Below are positions 12,585 to 33,809 of a DNA stretch of 64,000 nt, one piece after another. A program made the position numbers and the translations under genes. Each line of letters begins with the position of its first letter. The stretch's first letter is position 1. The notes beneath the pieces were generated by a model. It saw only the letters and a program-made list of their open reading frames with translations, made no database searches and was not told where the DNA came from. This stretch comes from Flaviaestuariibacter sp. (GTDB taxonomy: Bacteria; Bacteroidota; Bacteroidia; Chitinophagales; Chitinophagaceae), in contig JAOQAI010000005.1 of the NCBI GenBank assembly GCA_025963645.1, positions 1-64,000 on the forward strand, read 5' to 3'.

Positions 12585-15500
12585 ATGGCTAATCAATATA
12601 AAGAATTTAAAGGCTTGCACCTTCCTTCCATTGAAAAGGAGATGCTGGAACGCTGGGAACGGGAAAAAGCCTTTCAGAAGAGCGTGGAGCTGCGGGAAGG
12701 TGCAGAGCCTTTCGTGTTTTACGAAGGTCCGCCGAGCGCCAATGGCATGCCTGGAATCCACCACGTTATCTCCCGCACTTTAAAAGACCTCGTTTGCCGC
12801 TATAAAACCATGCAGGGCTATAAAGTGCAGCGCAAAGGCGGGTGGGATACCCATGGTTTGCCAGTGGAACTAGGTGTGGAGAAGGAGTTGGGTATTACAA
12901 AAGAAGATATTGGTAAGGCCATCTCCGTAGCGGATTACAACCAGAAATGCCGCGAGGCCGTGCTGCGATACAAGGATAAGTGGGACGAGATCACGACCAA
13001 AATGGGTTATTGGGTGGACCTCGAAAAGCCTTACGTGACCTTCACGAATGAATACATTGAAAGCCTTTGGTGGTGCCTGAAAGAATTGTATAACAAAGGC
13101 TTTCTTTATAAGAGTGTCTCTATTCAACCCTATTCCCCAGCTGCGGGAACCGGGCTTAGTTCGCATGAGCTGAACCAGCAGGGAACCTACCGGAATGTGA
13201 AGGATACAAGTGCAACGGTGCTTTTTAAAGCAAAGCAAGATACAGGAGCAAACTTCCTATTTGAAGCGTTAGGCTGTGAGCCGGTGTTTTTTATGGCATG
13301 GACGACAACCCCTTGGACACTGCCTTCCAACTTAGGGTTGACAGTAGGACCAAACATTGACTATGTTCTGGTCAAAACCTTTAATCCTTATACCCACGAA
13401 GCACAAAACGTAGTGCTGGCAAAAGCGCTGCTGCATAAATATTTTAAAGCCGAAGGCGAGAATGCCGACTTTGCAGCTTATAAAGAAGGGGATAAGATCA
13501 TTCCCTATAAGATCATCAGCGAGTTTAAGGGAGCGGCTCTTGAGAACTTGGAGTATGAGCAATTACTTCCGTATGAAGCGAATTCGATAGATTCTCTTAA
13601 GTCTTTAACCCCGGATGCAAGGCCATGGCGGATTTTATTAGGTGACTTTGTAACCACGGAAGACGGCACTGGGATTGTTCACACAGCTCCAGATTTTGGT
13701 GCTGATGATTTTAAAGTTGGACAGAAATACAATTTGGGTTATTTCACAGTTGTAAACAAGTTTGGTAAGGTAGAAAAGCAAGTATTAGTAAATCGCCAAG
13801 GAAAGTTTGTTGATGGACTGGGTGAGTTCAGTGGCCGCTATATTAAAGACTATAAGGATGAAGTTGGCTACGAAGATGTAAACGTTGACATTTGCGTTAA
13901 GTTAAAAAAAGAAGGTCGTGCCTTTAAAGTAGAAAAATACGAACACAGCTACCCGCACTGCTGGCGTACTGATAAGGCTGTTATCTATTATCCATTAGAT
14001 GCCTGGTTTATCCGCACTACCGCCGTTAAAGATCGCATGGTAGAGCTGAATAAGACCATCAACTGGAAACCGGCAAGCACGGGCACCGGTCGTTTTGGCA
14101 ACTGGCTGGAGAACGCCGTGGACTGGAACCTCAGCCGCAGCCGCTATTGGGGCACACCGCTTCCTATTTGGCGTACGGAAGATGGCAGTGAAGAAATTTG
14201 CATTGGCTCTATCGAAGAATTGAATAGCGAGATCCGCAAAGCATCGGAAGTGCTGGGTGGTGACGTGAACAAGAATTATTTGCACGATGGCATCCTGGAC
14301 CTGCACAAACCTTATGTGGATGAAGTAGTGCTGGTATCGCCAAGCGGCAAGCCCATGCTCCGCGAACCGGACCTGATAGATGTGTGGTTTGATTCCGGCG
14401 CCATGCCTTATGCCCAATGGCATTACCCGTTTGGAAAGCCACCGTCTTCCACCACAGGCGACCGTACTCCCTCTCTTTTAGGAGAGGGCTGGGGTGAGGT
14501 TTTTCCAGCTTCTTTTATTGCCGAAGGCGTAGACCAGACCCGTGGCTGGTTTTATACCCTGCATGCGCTGGCAGTGATGTTGTTTGACAGCGTCGCTTAT
14601 AAAACTGTTGTTTCCAACGGTTTAGTGCTGGATAAAACCGGGACTAAAATGAGCAAACGGTTGGGAAATATCGTAGATCCCTTCAAAACAATCGAAGACT
14701 TTGGCGCCGATGCTACCCGCTGGTACCTTATCACCAATGCGTCGCCGTGGGATAACCTGAAGTTTGATATAGAAGGTATTAAGGAGATCCAGCGTAAGTT
14801 TTTCGGCACACTATATAATACCTACCAATTCTTTGCGCTTTACGCCAATGTGGATGGCTTTACGTTCAAGGAGGCTTATATCCCGGTAGCGGAACGGCCT
14901 GAAATTGACCGCTGGATCTTATCGAGTCTGCAAACGCTGATCAAAAAGACAACAGCTGCATTTGACGATTATGAACCTACACAGGCCGGTCGCCTGATAG
15001 AAGATTTTGTAGATGAGCAGCTGTCGAACTGGTATGTGCGTTTATGCCGCCGCCGCTTCTGGAAAGGAGAGTACGAGGGCGACAAAATTGCGGCTTACCA
15101 AACGCTTTATGAGTGCCTAGAAACCGTCGTTCGCCTGATGGCGCCGATCTCGCCTTTCTTTAGCGATGAACTTTTCCTGAACCTGAATGCCGTAACTGGT
15201 AAGCATGGGCAGGCATCGGTTCATCACATCAGTTTCCCTGTGGCTAAAGAAGAATTGATCGATACCTTATTGGAAGAGCGGATGGTAGCAGCCCAGCAAG
15301 TGTCATCACTGGTGCTTTCGTTGCGTAAAAAGGTAAATATAAAAGTCCGCCAGCCCCTACAAAAAGTGCTGATCCCGGTTTTTAATTCCCTCATGCAAGA
15401 GCAATTAGAAAAAGTAGAGGAGTTGATCAAAGGAGAAGTGAATATTAAGGAGATCGAATACCTGGTGGATTCGGAAGGATTCATTAAAAAGAAGATCAGG

Positions 15501-16013
15501 CCCAACTTTGTAGCCTTGGGTAAAAAACTGGGTGCTAAAATGAAGACGGTAAGCAATGCCTTGGCTGCATTTACCCAGCATGACATTGCCCAGTTTGAAA
15601 AGCAGGGCCACTATATGATGGACTTAGGGGGAGAAGAAGAGGTAGAACTGCTATTAAGCGAAGTAGAAATTACCAGCGAAGACATTCCCGGATGGTCCGT
15701 GGCCAGCAAAGGCGCCCTGACGGTTGCGCTAGATATAAACATTACGCCTGAGCTTGCCCAGGAAGGCGATGCCCGGGAATTTGTAAACCGGTTGCAACGC
15801 CTTCGGAAGGATAACGGCTTTGAACTAACTGACCGGGTGACCGTAGAGGTGGCTGCCAATAATGGCATCAAAGCATCATTGGAGAGGTATAATAGCTATA
15901 TTTGCGCCGAAATTCTGGCAGACAAGCTGGACATAAAATCAGACATTAGCGGTGGCACAGAAATAGAAGTTAACGATAATCTATTGAAAGTCATCCTATT
16001 AAAAAATGGGTAA
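12585..16013 (+). CDS. ileS: Isoleucyl-tRNA synthetase
   Basis: This 1142-residue class I synthetase charges tRNA-Ile. The HIGH-type motif is PSANGMPGIHHV near residue 50. The editing domain includes TTPWTLPSNLGL and GTGIVHTAPDFGADD. The KMSKS loop is KTGTKMSKRLGN. The anticodon-binding and C-terminal domains follow. The ATG at 12585 is preferred because it follows the promoter and gives the family N-terminus MANQYKEF. An odd segment at about residues 616-640 (PSLLGEGWGEV and neighbours) replaces the short loop normally found before FIAEGVDQTRGWF. It is a translated palindromic repeat. The gene is followed after 5 bases by the DksA-like gene. Confidence 0.97.
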   Translation: MANQYKEFKGLHLPSIEKEMLERWEREKAFQKSVELREGAEPFVFYEGPPSANGMPGIHHVISRTLKDLVCRYKTMQGYKVQRKGGWDTHGLPVELGVEKELGITKEDIGKAISVADYNQKCREAVLRYKDKWDEITTKMGYWVDLEKPYVTFTNEYIESLWWCLKELYNKGFLYKSVSIQPYSPAAGTGLSSHELNQQGTYRNVKDTSATVLFKAKQDTGANFLFEALGCEPVFFMAWTTTPWTLPSNLGLTVGPNIDYVLVKTFNPYTHEAQNVVLAKALLHKYFKAEGENADFAAYKEGDKIIPYKIISEFKGAALENLEYEQLLPYEANSIDSLKSLTPDARPWRILLGDFVTTEDGTGIVHTAPDFGADDFKVGQKYNLGYFTVVNKFGKVEKQVLVNRQGKFVDGLGEFSGRYIKDYKDEVGYEDVNVDICVKLKKEGRAFKVEKYEHSYPHCWRTDKAVIYYPLDAWFIRTTAVKDRMVELNKTINWKPASTGTGRFGNWLENAVDWNLSRSRYWGTPLPIWRTEDGSEEICIGSIEELNSEIRKASEVLGGDVNKNYLHDGILDLHKPYVDEVVLVSPSGKPMLREPDLIDVWFDSGAMPYAQWHYPFGKPPSSTTGDRTPSLLGEGWGEVFPASFIAEGVDQTRGWFYTLHALAVMLFDSVAYKTVVSNGLVLDKTGTKMSKRLGNIVDPFKTIEDFGADATRWYLITNASPWDNLKFDIEGIKEIQRKFFGTLYNTYQFFALYANVDGFTFKEAYIPVAERPEIDRWILSSLQTLIKKTTAAFDDYEPTQAGRLIEDFVDEQLSNWYVRLCRRRFWKGEYEGDKIAAYQTLYECLETVVRLMAPISPFFSDELFLNLNAVTGKHGQASVHHISFPVAKEELIDTLLEERMVAAQQVSSLVLSLRKKVNIKVRQPLQKVLIPVFNSLMQEQLEKVEELIKGEVNIKEIEYLVDSEGFIKKKIRPNFVALGKKLGAKMKTVSNALAAFTQHDIAQFEKQGHYMMDLGGEEEVELLLSEVEITSEDIPGWSVASKGALTVALDINITPELAQEGDAREFVNRLQRLRKDNGFELTDRVTVEVAANNGIKASLERYNSYICAEILADKLDIKSDISGGTEIEVNDNLLKVILLKNG
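14465..14503 (+). repeat. REP-like palindrome inserted in frame in ileS
   Basis: CCCTCTC-TTTTAG-GAGAGGG, followed by GCTGGGGTGAGG, is a member of a dispersed palindromic repeat also present twice at 33733-33787. Here it is translated in frame as TPSLLGEGWGEV. Confidence 0.75.
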
Positions 16014-16018
16014 ACCGT

Positions 16019-17071
16019 ATGGCAACAAAAAAAGCAGCCCCCAAAAAAGCAGTTAAACCTGCACCGCCAGCTAAAAAAGCGGCACCGAAACCTGCCCCCA
16101 AGGCAGCAGCGAAGCCTACGCCCACCAAAAACACCAAGCCCGCCTCAAAGCCTGTAGCCTCTAAAAAGGTAGTTGCTCCTGCTAAAAAGTCAGCCACAGC
16201 ACCTAAGAAAGTAGCTCCTGGAGCTAAAAAAGCAGCAACGCCTGTAAAAAAGCAAACTGCTAAAGCCACTGCAAAAGCAGCCCCTAAAAAAGCGGCTCCG
16301 GCACCTAAGAAAGCAGTGCCTAAAAAAGCAGCGCCCGTTAAAGCTCAACCGAAGCAAGCGCCTAAGCCCCAGCCAAAGCCTGTAGCGAAAACGCCAGCAA
16401 AAACGCCAGCGAAAGCGGCACCTGTAAAAGCCGCTCCGGCAAAAGCGACACCTGCGAAAGCAGTGGCTAAAGCCAAGGCTCCTGAACCCGTTAAAAAGCC
16501 AGCTGTTGCTGCAAAGACACAAACGGAAATTAAGCCGGCCATTAAACCGGTCGCCCAGGCACCCGTGAAGAAAGAACCCGCGAAACCCGCTAAACCATTT
16601 GTAGTGCCAAAAACATCAACCACAAAGTCTGTTAAATATAATCCTGATTTTACGAAGTCTGTGTTAGACGCCAACAGCATTAAGCAGGAAGATAACGTAA
16701 CCTCTCAGCGCTATTCCGATGCCGATCTGAGGGAGTTTCGCGACCTTATTAACCGGAAACTCGATACCGCTAAGAAAGAGTTGGCTTACCTGCAAGGCCT
16801 GGTTACCCGCAAAGACGAAAGCGGTGACATGGACGAAGGTCGCTATATGACCATGGAAGATGGCAGCATGAGCATGGAGCGGGAGCAGCTAAGCCAGATG
16901 GCCAGCCGCCAGATCCAGTTCATTGATCATCTGGAAAAAGCCATCATGCGGATAGAGAACAAAACCTATGGCATTTGCCGCGTTACCGGGAAGCTTATTG
17001 ACAAGGCTCGCCTTCGTGCCGTGCCGCATGCTACTTTAAGCATTGAAGCGAAGCAACTGATGAACAAGTAA
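16019..17071 (+). CDS. DksA/TraR-like protein with histone-H1-like tail
   Basis: The 350-residue protein has two parts. Residues 1 to about 200 are almost only Lys, Ala, Pro, Thr and Val in AAPKK/APAKA-type repeats, like bacterial and eukaryotic H1 tails. Residues from about 235 match the Bacteroidota TraR/DksA domain: RYSDADLREFRDLINRKLD, a coiled-coil hairpin, then YGICRVTGKLIDKARLRAVP. Only one of the four zinc-finger cysteines is present. DksA-type proteins bind RNA polymerase in its secondary channel. The basic tail suggests DNA or RNA contact. It is co-transcribed with ileS and ends in a strong terminator. The usual neighbour lspA lies 16 kb away here. Confidence 0.88.
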   Translation: MATKKAAPKKAVKPAPPAKKAAPKPAPKAAAKPTPTKNTKPASKPVASKKVVAPAKKSATAPKKVAPGAKKAATPVKKQTAKATAKAAPKKAAPAPKKAVPKKAAPVKAQPKQAPKPQPKPVAKTPAKTPAKAAPVKAAPAKATPAKAVAKAKAPEPVKKPAVAAKTQTEIKPAIKPVAQAPVKKEPAKPAKPFVVPKTSTTKSVKYNPDFTKSVLDANSIKQEDNVTSQRYSDADLREFRDLINRKLDTAKKELAYLQGLVTRKDESGDMDEGRYMTMEDGSMSMEREQLSQMASRQIQFIDHLEKAIMRIENKTYGICRVTGKLIDKARLRAVPHATLSIEAKQLMNK

Positions 17072-25842: not shown

Positions 25843-26241
25843 ATGATTGCAGAAAAAGAAAATAAGGTTGACATAAGTTCTCTGCCAAAGGCGGAGCTGG
25901 GGGCAAATGCAATTTATGTAAGCGATAAAGCCCGTGACAAAGCACGGCAGCTAATGCAGGATGCCGGTATTGCTGATGATCCATCCTACTTTTTACGGGT
26001 AGGAGTTGTTGGCGGTGGCTGTTCCGGACTGAGTTATAAGTTGGATTTTGACAACGAGCAGAAGCCAATGGACCAGGTGTTTGAAGACAACGGGATTAAA
26101 GTAGTGACGGACCTGAAAAGCTTTTTATACCTGGTGAATACGATGCTGGATTTCTCTGATGGATTGAATGGTAAAGGCTTTTATTTTAATAACCCGAATG
26201 CCAGCAGGACTTGTGGCTGCGGCGAAAGTTTCGCTGTATAG
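25843..26241 (+). CDS. iscA: HesB/IscA-type iron-sulfur carrier
   Basis: The 132-residue A-type carrier has the three cysteines in VGGGCSGLSY and RTCGCGESF. It is about 25 residues longer than typical IscA at its N-terminus (MIAEKENKVDISSLPKAELG). It completes the isc cluster and is followed by a hairpin. Confidence 0.93.
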   Translation: MIAEKENKVDISSLPKAELGANAIYVSDKARDKARQLMQDAGIADDPSYFLRVGVVGGGCSGLSYKLDFDNEQKPMDQVFEDNGIKVVTDLKSFLYLVNTMLDFSDGLNGKGFYFNNPNASRTCGCGESFAV

Positions 26242-26286
26242 TCTGAACCTGGATTTGGGTGGAGTTATAGGATTTGGAAGAAATTC

Positions 26287-26352: not shown

Positions 26353-26552
26353 CCGTGCATTCAGAGACACCTTTTTAGATACTAGTTAAGAAGTTTCTAT
26401 CGTAGCAAGAGATGACTGCTCTTGGAATGAGAACAATCCTCTTAGTAATTAGCTTTCCTCATCATCTTACAAATCCGCCCAAATCCAGGTTCAGACATCT
26501 GGTTCAGAATTCCTTATTTTACATTCAGAATTTCGCATTTTACATTTCACTC

Positions 26553-33089: not shown

Positions 33090-33809
33090 GTGAAACTTCG
33101 TTCTGCCGTACTCATCATCCTGCTTATCATTCTTGCCGACCAGGCGTTGAAGATCTGGATCAAGACCTCTTTTCCTTTTGGCCCGGTGATGAATATGGGC
33201 GGCGTCGAATGGGCCCGCCTGTATTTTATAGAAAATGAAGGCATGGCTTGGGGGATGAAACTGTTCGGCGGCAAATGGGGCAAGATCACGCTAACGCTGT
33301 TCCGGTTAGTGGCGGTTATTTTCGGTTCCTGGTACCTCGTAAAGATCACCCGCGAAAGATATACCCGTGGTTTTATCGTTTGCGCTTCCCTGATTTATGC
33401 CGGCGCGTTGGGCAATCTTATCGATAGCATGTTTTATGGATTGATCTTTTCCAGATCGGATTACAGCACGGTGGCTTCGGCTTTTCCTCCGGGCGGCGGC
33501 TATGAAGGTTTTTTGCAGGGGCATGTGGTGGATATGCTTTATTTTCCGATTGTAAGGGATGCCACCTGGCCTTCGTGGATGCCCATCATTGGTGGAAATG
33601 GGTTCGAATTTTTCAGCCCGATCTTTAATATTGCCGATGCGGCTATTTCCATTGGTGTGATCACATTATTGATTTTCCAGAAGCGGTTCTTGCATAAACA
33701 CGAAGCCTCCCCAACCCCACACCTCACCCCCGCCTCTCCTGAAGGAGAGGAGCGACCTCACCCTGACCCTCTCCTTGGAGGAGAGGGAACCACGCACAGA
33801 CCCGGATAA
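33090..33809 (+). CDS. lspA: Lipoprotein signal peptidase
   Basis: The 239-residue inner-membrane aspartyl protease cleaves lipoprotein signal peptides. It has four helices and the two catalytic aspartates in GNLIDSMFYG and FNIADAAISIG. The start is GTG: the ATG two bases earlier is followed at once by a stop. The family sequence ends near residue 207 (FLHKHEAS). The remaining 30 residues (PTPHLTPASPEGEER and on) are translated palindromic repeat, so the original stop was lost or displaced. Elsewhere in Bacteroidota lspA often follows ileS and the DksA-like gene. Here it stands alone with its own promoter. Confidence 0.92.
   Translation: MKLRSAVLIILLIILADQALKIWIKTSFPFGPVMNMGGVEWARLYFIENEGMAWGMKLFGGKWGKITLTLFRLVAVIFGSWYLVKITRERYTRGFIVCASLIYAGALGNLIDSMFYGLIFSRSDYSTVASAFPPGGGYEGFLQGHVVDMLYFPIVRDATWPSWMPIIGGNGFEFFSPIFNIADAAISIGVITLLIFQKRFLHKHEASPTPHLTPASPEGEERPHPDPLLGGEGTTHRPG
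33715..33790. repeat. Double REP-like palindrome in the 3' end of lspA
   Basis: CCTCTCC-TGAA-GGAGAGG (33733-33750) and CCCTCTCC-TTGGA-GGAGAGGG (33767-33787) are tandem members of the repeat also found inside ileS. They encode the C-terminal tail of LspA. Confidence 0.8.

Follow-up and report, generated by a model that had tools for sequence, protein, structure and literature searches.

The window, i.e. the whole 64-kb stretch of DNA analysed, contains, besides two related palindromes at the end of lspA, a gene for isoleucyl-tRNA synthetase (IleS) in which a short palindromic repeat encodes part of an extra loop. The relevant features are as follows.

12585-16013, plus strand: ileS, isoleucyl-tRNA synthetase of 1142 aa (TIGR00392, 990 bits versus a cut-off of 621)
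14433-14501, plus strand: lineage-specific loop of 23 residues, GKPPSSTTGDRTPSLLGEGWGEV, replacing the 9 residues of relatives (loop comparison)
14467-14499, plus strand: palindromic repeat unit of 33 bp, a hairpin plus the GCTGGGGTGAGG tail (pattern counts and fold)
14469-14488, unstranded: perfect pyrimidine/purine hairpin in ileS (hairpin scan)
33733-33750, unstranded: first palindrome, at the 3' end of lspA, translated as part of the ORF (hairpin scan)
33767-33787, unstranded: second palindrome, at the lspA end (hairpin scan)

The protein is the sole IleS match at E 1e-60 or better in the partial genome to which the window belongs (G000; 2.57 Mb, 21 contigs, 63% complete), and both PGIHH and KMSKR, which we take to be the catalytic motifs of IleS, are found in it. 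HYPF is followed by GKPPSSTTGDRTPSLLGEGWGEV (14433-14501) and then by FPASFIAEGVDQTRGWF. The repeat unit starts with CTCCC and ends with GGGTGAGG, and the codons over the palindrome give TPSLLGEGWGEV, the final 12 of the 23 loop residues. Folding of positions 14460-14505 yields a z-score of -2.51, with an equally good fold in 3 of 200 shuffles. Two other features of the window deserve mention. In the ORF at 16019-17071, a long N-terminal half rich in Lys, Ala and Pro presumably resembles histone H1, and the C-terminal end DksA/TraR. An inverted repeat of 43 nt (26241-26283 and 26454-26496, 81% complementary, 170 nt apart) lies at the start of an ORF which we take to encode an ABC-transporter permease.

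The loop is 32 aa long in this IleS versus 18 aa in all 17 same-genus genomes compared, a net gain of 14 residues. The initial annotation had spoken of about 20 extra residues; the insertion is thus real, but smaller than proposed. In total, 47 loops were read from 50 loci (3 were not located); a second set of 80 named loci, in which all loops were read, may overlap the first, and a family-wide survey found an IleS match in 372 of 394 genomes, whose loops were not entered in the counts. Since the IleS frame is open across 14467-14499 and the segment is absent from 17/17 same-genus loops, the insert tells of an in-frame insertion, and the suggestion that a repeat is translated within an essential enzyme is borne out. 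In a 28-protein alignment the loop is bordered by invariant residues (599-612 except 606 and 598; 641-642; 647-656). A structure prediction from 28 sequences has a mean pLDDT of 78 and a pTM of 0.67; 8c8w is a solved relative. The insert falls within the stretch 614-638, where pLDDT is below 50 and the sole predicted secondary structure is a short helix at its end. This fits a flexible loop, though the model says little here, given that pLDDT is also below 50 for neighbouring catalytic stretches (601-610, 649-652 and 679-696). We infer that IleS carrying the insert is fully active.

Pyrimidine/purine hairpins with arms of 7 number just three in the 64-kb window, namely, the one in ileS and the two at the lspA end, and 10 block shuffles of the window produced none of this class. 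With up to 3 mismatches allowed, the 29-nt IleS pattern has a single occurrence and is absent from all of 100 shuffles. It had been proposed that the same repeat ends lspA. The lspA copy is indeed a family member, but it is not identical to the IleS copy, differing by 3 mismatches in 18 nt. The final ~30 residues of the lspA ORF (33090-33809) come from the two palindromes; the second, by eye, opens a composite unit, with a terminator-like hairpin farther on. Genome-wide, the 18-nt tail has 27 copies at up to 1 mismatch and 33 at up to 3 (reversed-pattern control, 5), and the 20-nt form of the repeat has 23 copies at up to 2 mismatches versus 0 in the control. Among those 23, the exact CTGGGG form is found only in IleS, the rest having mostly TAGGG. 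The expectation that the repeat recurs elsewhere is thus confirmed by 27 tail copies in a genome that is 63% complete, and the 33-bp unit with these copies falls within the definition of REPs as multi-copy palindromes of 20-40 bp. Inverted copies are also paired in composite units with an outer span of ~180-187 bp, arranged around a terminator-like hairpin and a similar spacer (C18:68922-69108, C18:76065-76250, C21:95040-95226 and C21:139520-139699, among others); by eye, these units often sit at gene ends. An artefact or coincidence, either mis-assembly or a chance hairpin in a fast-evolving loop, is extremely improbable as the source of the IleS segment. It would be in keeping with a partial assembly (63%, 21 contigs) and with the variable loop length in other genera, but not with the result of 0/100 shuffles, the 27 genomic copies, the open frame through a conserved enzyme and the comparable inserts in unrelated assemblies.

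The larger fact lay outside the window: two core genes of the same genome, leuS and ispG, contain in-frame DUF559 domains. G000 encodes four DUF559 domains, these two and two that are free-standing. Two internal sites of the leuS gene carry palindromes in frame. Those of site 1 are inverted and enclose a complete DUF559 domain; in the Pfam assignment of this ORF, DUF559 spans 379-484 and the LeuRS editing domain 508-667. In ispG (GcpE), where the DUF559 domain is likewise in frame, a perfect hairpin is present on the left only, the right palindrome is seen by eye only, and no inverted-end match above control was found (score 20). The leuS and ispG inserts match Pfam PF04480 (DUF559) with 105 and 114 bits (cut-off 20.6), and 3hrl is a solved relative (E 6.5e-21). 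The third, free-standing gene (C13:7164-7475) lies between inverted family repeats at C13:7076 and 7505, and the fourth, also free-standing, has other inverted ends (score 37). The IleS insert consists of a single palindrome, with no DUF559 remnant in it. The peptides encoded by the palindromes vary by frame, for example GEGWGE in IleS and GEGLGVR in leuS. At the 3' end of leuS (G000:C10:173152-173196; L007, L008), a complete palindrome gives the gene its stop codon (VVTSP*) and also gives one to the convergent neighbouring ORF.

In-frame DUF559 domains are not confined to this genome. We found 43 DUF559 matches in 14 of 18 same-genus genomes and read 32 of these loci. Twelve are in frame with the host gene: four in leuS, two in the gene for tryptophan 2,3-dioxygenase (TDO), three in M23 peptidase genes and one each in ispG, recQ and metH, the left side of the metH case being interrupted by an N run. 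Two further domains are located beside a DUF5522 domain and two at the start of argB. In the argB cases (G001:C355, L300; G009:C35, L212), DUF559 is N-terminal to an acetylglutamate-kinase-like sequence in one open frame, with CCCCTAAAGGGG palindromes and with a Pfam assignment for L212 only. We also sampled the phylum, apparently Bacteroidota from the organism names: DUF559 is present in 49 of 118 genomes; of the 107 matches listed, 101 are outside G000 and G003. From these, 34 loci were fetched and those with long frames were read, yielding 14 more in-frame cases: leuS site 1 (3), leuS site 2 (2), metH (2), recG (2), hsdM, hsdR-type genes (2) and two other restriction genes; L294, L298 and L299 were left out of this count. 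In the element L268 the host frame is seemingly shifted. The host was confirmed by Pfam in 18 of the 26 in-frame cases and assigned by sequence likeness in the other 8 (L205, L210, L266, L269, L270, L283, L289 and L290); NCBIfam agrees on leuS, ispG, TDO, recQ and metH. The intein splicing (Hint) domain had no Pfam match at E 1e-5 in 20 host ORFs.

Comparison of flanking regions indicates which gene goes with the palindromes. Hairpins of the IleS class lie within 330 bp of DUF559 on either side at 43/59 loci and on both sides at 18/59 (63 of 66 loci entered, 4 not located), versus 4/53 and 0/53 for shifted controls. The corresponding figures for Y1 loci are 1/28 and 0/28, counted by match coordinates at 28 of 30 loci; an earlier motif-based test had located only 13/30. 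The IleS palindrome itself scores 53 and 49 (68 possible) against DUF559-side palindromes in L214 and L201, and scores of at least 30, the maximum of 20 shuffled queries, are reached at 15/63 DUF559 loci versus 1/30 Y1 loci. Thus, the pyrimidine/purine palindromes of the IleS class belong with DUF559, not with RAYTs. The initial annotation had pointed to a RAYT transposase. RAYT-like genes are present, two of them in G000 (below the Pfam cut-off, with PNHIH/PNHVH motifs), and 15/18 same-genus genomes have such genes, yet the predicted link was not borne out: their flanks carry other hairpins, and the single Y1 locus with an IleS-class palindrome, L243 in G010, has it on one side. RAYT as the partner is not supported by the 30 Y1 loci inspected. 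That the IleS segment is an ordinary intragenic REP, moved by a RAYT (Y1 HUH transposase) and in frame by chance, is accordingly unlikely. The RAYT-like genes, locus L243 and the intragenic REPs, tRNA synthetases included, described in the consulted part of PMC3733652 would suit such an origin; the counts for IleS-class palindromes at Y1 loci (either side 1/28, both sides 0/28), the mixed-base hairpins found on both sides at 6/28 of them, and the end of the palindrome, GTGAGG, speak against it. The GTAG and CGTC tags of REP superfamilies are absent from the IleS unit (14467-14499). Separately, one RAYT-like gene of G000 (L024, G000:C9:8896-9084) is flanked on either side by a long inverted repeat (score 104), which by eye is unrelated in sequence to the IleS palindrome.

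Outside the phylum sample, the IleS palindrome was matched over at least 80% of its length in 12 records of a plasmid collection. At least 3 of the 12 have DUF559 within ~300 bp (two Synechocystis plasmids and one Neisseria record), all three being weak matches (82-86% identical, E 0.03-1); 8 of the 12 records were opened, three of them without annotation, and 30 of 40 DUF559 records were listed. In E. coli, the palindrome is found at ~1 copy per genome in 1490/5426 genomes and, in the single record compared, lies far from DUF559.

The ends of the DUF559 elements were compared with each other. Matching inverted ends exceed the maximum of 30 shifted controls at 23/31 same-genus loci, several of which are orthologous, so that the counts are not fully independent, and the maximum of 26 controls in 17/27 in-gene elements (L268 included). 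No matching ends above control were detected at 8/31 and in 10/27, respectively. Mispaired flanks also score fairly high, with a 95th percentile of 37 over 880 mispairs, which 16/31 true pairs surpass; the high score of L195 stems from another GC-rich repeat. Alternatively, DUF559 genes could be passengers that home into or beside palindromes spread by recombination or replication slippage. Most palindrome copies in G000 are not beside DUF559 (27 copies versus 4 DUF559 genes), and the ends vary in sequence between elements, as passengers of this kind would have it. However, left and right ends can be exactly the same within one element while those of other elements differ (leuS in G004, 31/31 nt; TDO in G006, 28/28 nt), and such an exact match is what termini travelling together with the gene should show. 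We consider the passenger explanation doubtful, to much the same degree as an ordinary REP or slightly more so.

Both leuS sites are occupied repeatedly and by different forms. At site 2, 14/16 same-genus genomes read have 5 aa, whereas G000 has a palindrome pair of 34 residues and G017 a single palindrome-like insert of another type of 26 residues (by eye); in G470 and G501 the same site holds DUF559. At site 1, DUF559 is present in 4/13 same-genus genomes read, palindromes only in G010 and a short loop in 8, five same-genus genomes being unread due to motif mismatch. The leuS remnant of G010 scores 39 against the Y1 locus L243 of the same genome and 33 against the best DUF559 locus. This series of full, paired and solo forms is our main ground for regarding the IleS copy as a small version of the DUF559 element, and its descent from a full element is suggested by the likeness of the ends together with the site 2 series. 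A small or remnant form of a palindrome-bounded element is thus the best reading of the IleS copy, and the palindrome pairs at leuS site 2 and the ~186-bp composite units look like non-autonomous forms.

In 8 pairs tested, pN of the nuclease part is 0.04-0.27 versus pS of 0.39-0.87 (saturated in 4), which indicates purifying selection on this part. Between the left palindrome and the DUF559 domain, 18/24 in-gene elements lack an ATG (the scan was for ATG, not GTG/TTG, and in one of the 18 this interval contains an N run). Host translation therefore probably produces the nuclease, as part of the host enzyme. In a tree of 55 of 64 DUF559 domains (9 not extracted), free-standing and in-gene forms are separate (6 changes versus a shuffled mean of 18.4), and occupation of leuS site 1 requires at least 3 changes. 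The leuS element of G000 is sister to the recQ element of another species (G001; support 100/99), suggesting that a DUF559 lineage switched genes. Strict site-specific homing was rejected as a full account, because the leuS site 1 elements do not form a single clade and one of them is sister to a recQ element. Neither a target-site duplication nor a transposition event was seen for these elements. In-gene nucleases might instead have been domesticated for host repair or defence, the IleS palindromes being decayed leftovers with no mobile future. Purifying selection in the 8 pairs would accord with such a role, as would the several hosts that are restriction-modification or helicase genes and a Caulobacter DUF559 protein described, in the passages available of PMC12907096, as Vsr-like and tied to the DNA damage response. 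Nevertheless, the patchy distribution within one genus and the repeated hits at leuS site 1 (at least 3 changes) look mobile, and domestication appears to us quite improbable.

In two more distant lineages the IleS loop contains other palindromes. In G028, from another genus of the same family, the loop NPFPFGEGWDGAFP derives from a palindrome of broadly the same type, which occurs once in its own partial genome at up to 3 mismatches and scores up to 38 against DUF559 loci, versus 25 for the best Y1 locus and a shuffled maximum of 27. A different class is represented in L147, from an uncultured Flaviramulus (Flavobacteriaceae), by the in-frame palindrome CGTCATTCCGAACTTGTTTCGGAATCTCAT. No likeness to DUF559 flanks was found for it, and only 5 scattered records of the plasmid collection match it; a tie to a nuclease gene was rejected after ~1.4 Mb of loci were scanned with no useful pairs. 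In other long IleS loops (G024, G041, L079, plus a few with 21-24 residues) no palindrome was recognised by eye. To judge from these sequences, the IleS loop appears to have been entered by more than one palindrome class in different lineages.

Taken together, we interpret the IleS segment, with a probability of roughly 0.6, as a small or vestigial member of a family of mobile elements that are bounded by palindromes and, when complete, carry a single DUF559 nuclease gene of the Vsr/EDxHD type. Confidence in the element is slightly reduced by the ispG element without an end match and by the Y1 locus of G010. According to this interpretation, the elements would sit in genes with the reading frame open from end to end, and host ribosomes would translate across them, yielding either a short peptide loop (IleS; leuS site 2 of G000) or an entire nuclease domain (leuS site 1 and ispG of G000). 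Selection would retain only copies that lie in permissive loops, are divisible by three in length and contain no stop, which would explain why the same loops are hit repeatedly. The nuclease may cut target DNA, and repair from the element would then result in movement; the IleS copy could have arisen from a full element by deletion or by movement in trans.

Several known systems resemble parts of this picture. Inteins are in-frame, endonuclease-carrying insertions in essential genes that are translated through, as the DUF559 elements are. Unlike inteins, the latter have no splicing domain in the 20 ORFs scanned, and the DUF559 domain seems to be retained in the enzyme. MITEs and REPINs are non-autonomous palindrome pairs with an internal spacer, an arrangement also seen at leuS site 2. 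As far as the consulted sections of a MITE review go (PMC10969869), the difference is that the presumed autonomous partner here encodes a Vsr-like nuclease rather than a transposase. The same source treats Rickettsia palindromic elements (RPEs) as the classic translated palindromes. The likeness to these gene-inserting palindromes, noted at the outset, holds in principle, since an in-frame insertion in a protein gene is seen in IleS: both are palindromic, in frame inside unrelated genes and retained by the host protein. RPEs, as portrayed there, are ~150 bp long with a conserved peptide, whereas the IleS unit is 33 bp, palindromes of this kind are read in different frames and its relatives carry a nuclease gene.

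REPs within genes, tRNA synthetases included, are described for X. oryzae, E. litoralis and S. alaskensis in the portion consulted of Di Nocera et al. 2013 (PMC3733652); REP termini there provide stop codons, and recB of two species is hit at about the same site. These intragenic REPs are like the IleS copy in being short palindromes in coding frames of conserved genes. The REP families of that account have GTAG or CGTC tags, with tyrosine transposases linked to the GTAG REPs, whereas neither tag is present in the IleS class, whose link is to DUF559. The passages available of PMC9403480 place its DUF559 gene in the EDxHD homing endonuclease family (I-Bth0305I), and EDxHD homing endonucleases likewise put a nuclease domain in core genes. 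They differ from the elements described here, in which no intron or intein was seen, the DUF559 units are often palindrome-bounded at both ends, and one DUF559 lineage is found in different genes (leuS, recQ). Repeated segments with a transposase and DUF559 appear in the consulted text of PMC12308824, and TnpA-REP subclass 2.6, mostly from Bacteroidetes, has atypical flanking structures according to the part seen of PMC6006769. In a literature search mostly without subscription papers, no paper joined DUF559 with 'inverted repeats' or with 'tRNA synthetase', and palindrome-bounded DUF559 elements were not recognised in the titles, abstracts and passages retrieved. The IleS palindrome alone joins a known kind; the palindrome-bounded, in-frame setting of DUF559 is the stronger result.

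Generalising further, we tentatively propose, at somewhat less than even odds, a class of selfish elements that live as translated sequence. In such elements of bacteria a Vsr-like DUF559 nuclease between pyrimidine/purine palindromes would persist inside core enzymes (LeuRS, IspG, MetH, RecQ, RecG) as an internal domain that is not spliced out, expressed by host translation. It would be protected from loss, since imprecise removal would harm the host enzyme, and palindrome-only forms, the IleS one among them, would be miniatures or scars. DUF559, a large family of unknown function, thereby gains a concrete, testable genomic niche, and a widespread class of palindromes gains a candidate partner other than RAYT. 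Different palindromes have entered the same LeuRS and IleRS loops on several occasions, and the insertions point to a route by which whole domains as well as short loops enter essential enzymes with the reading frame kept open. Should the nuclease drive movement, we would be dealing with a mobile element that stays in frame and depends on neither splicing nor a promoter of its own.
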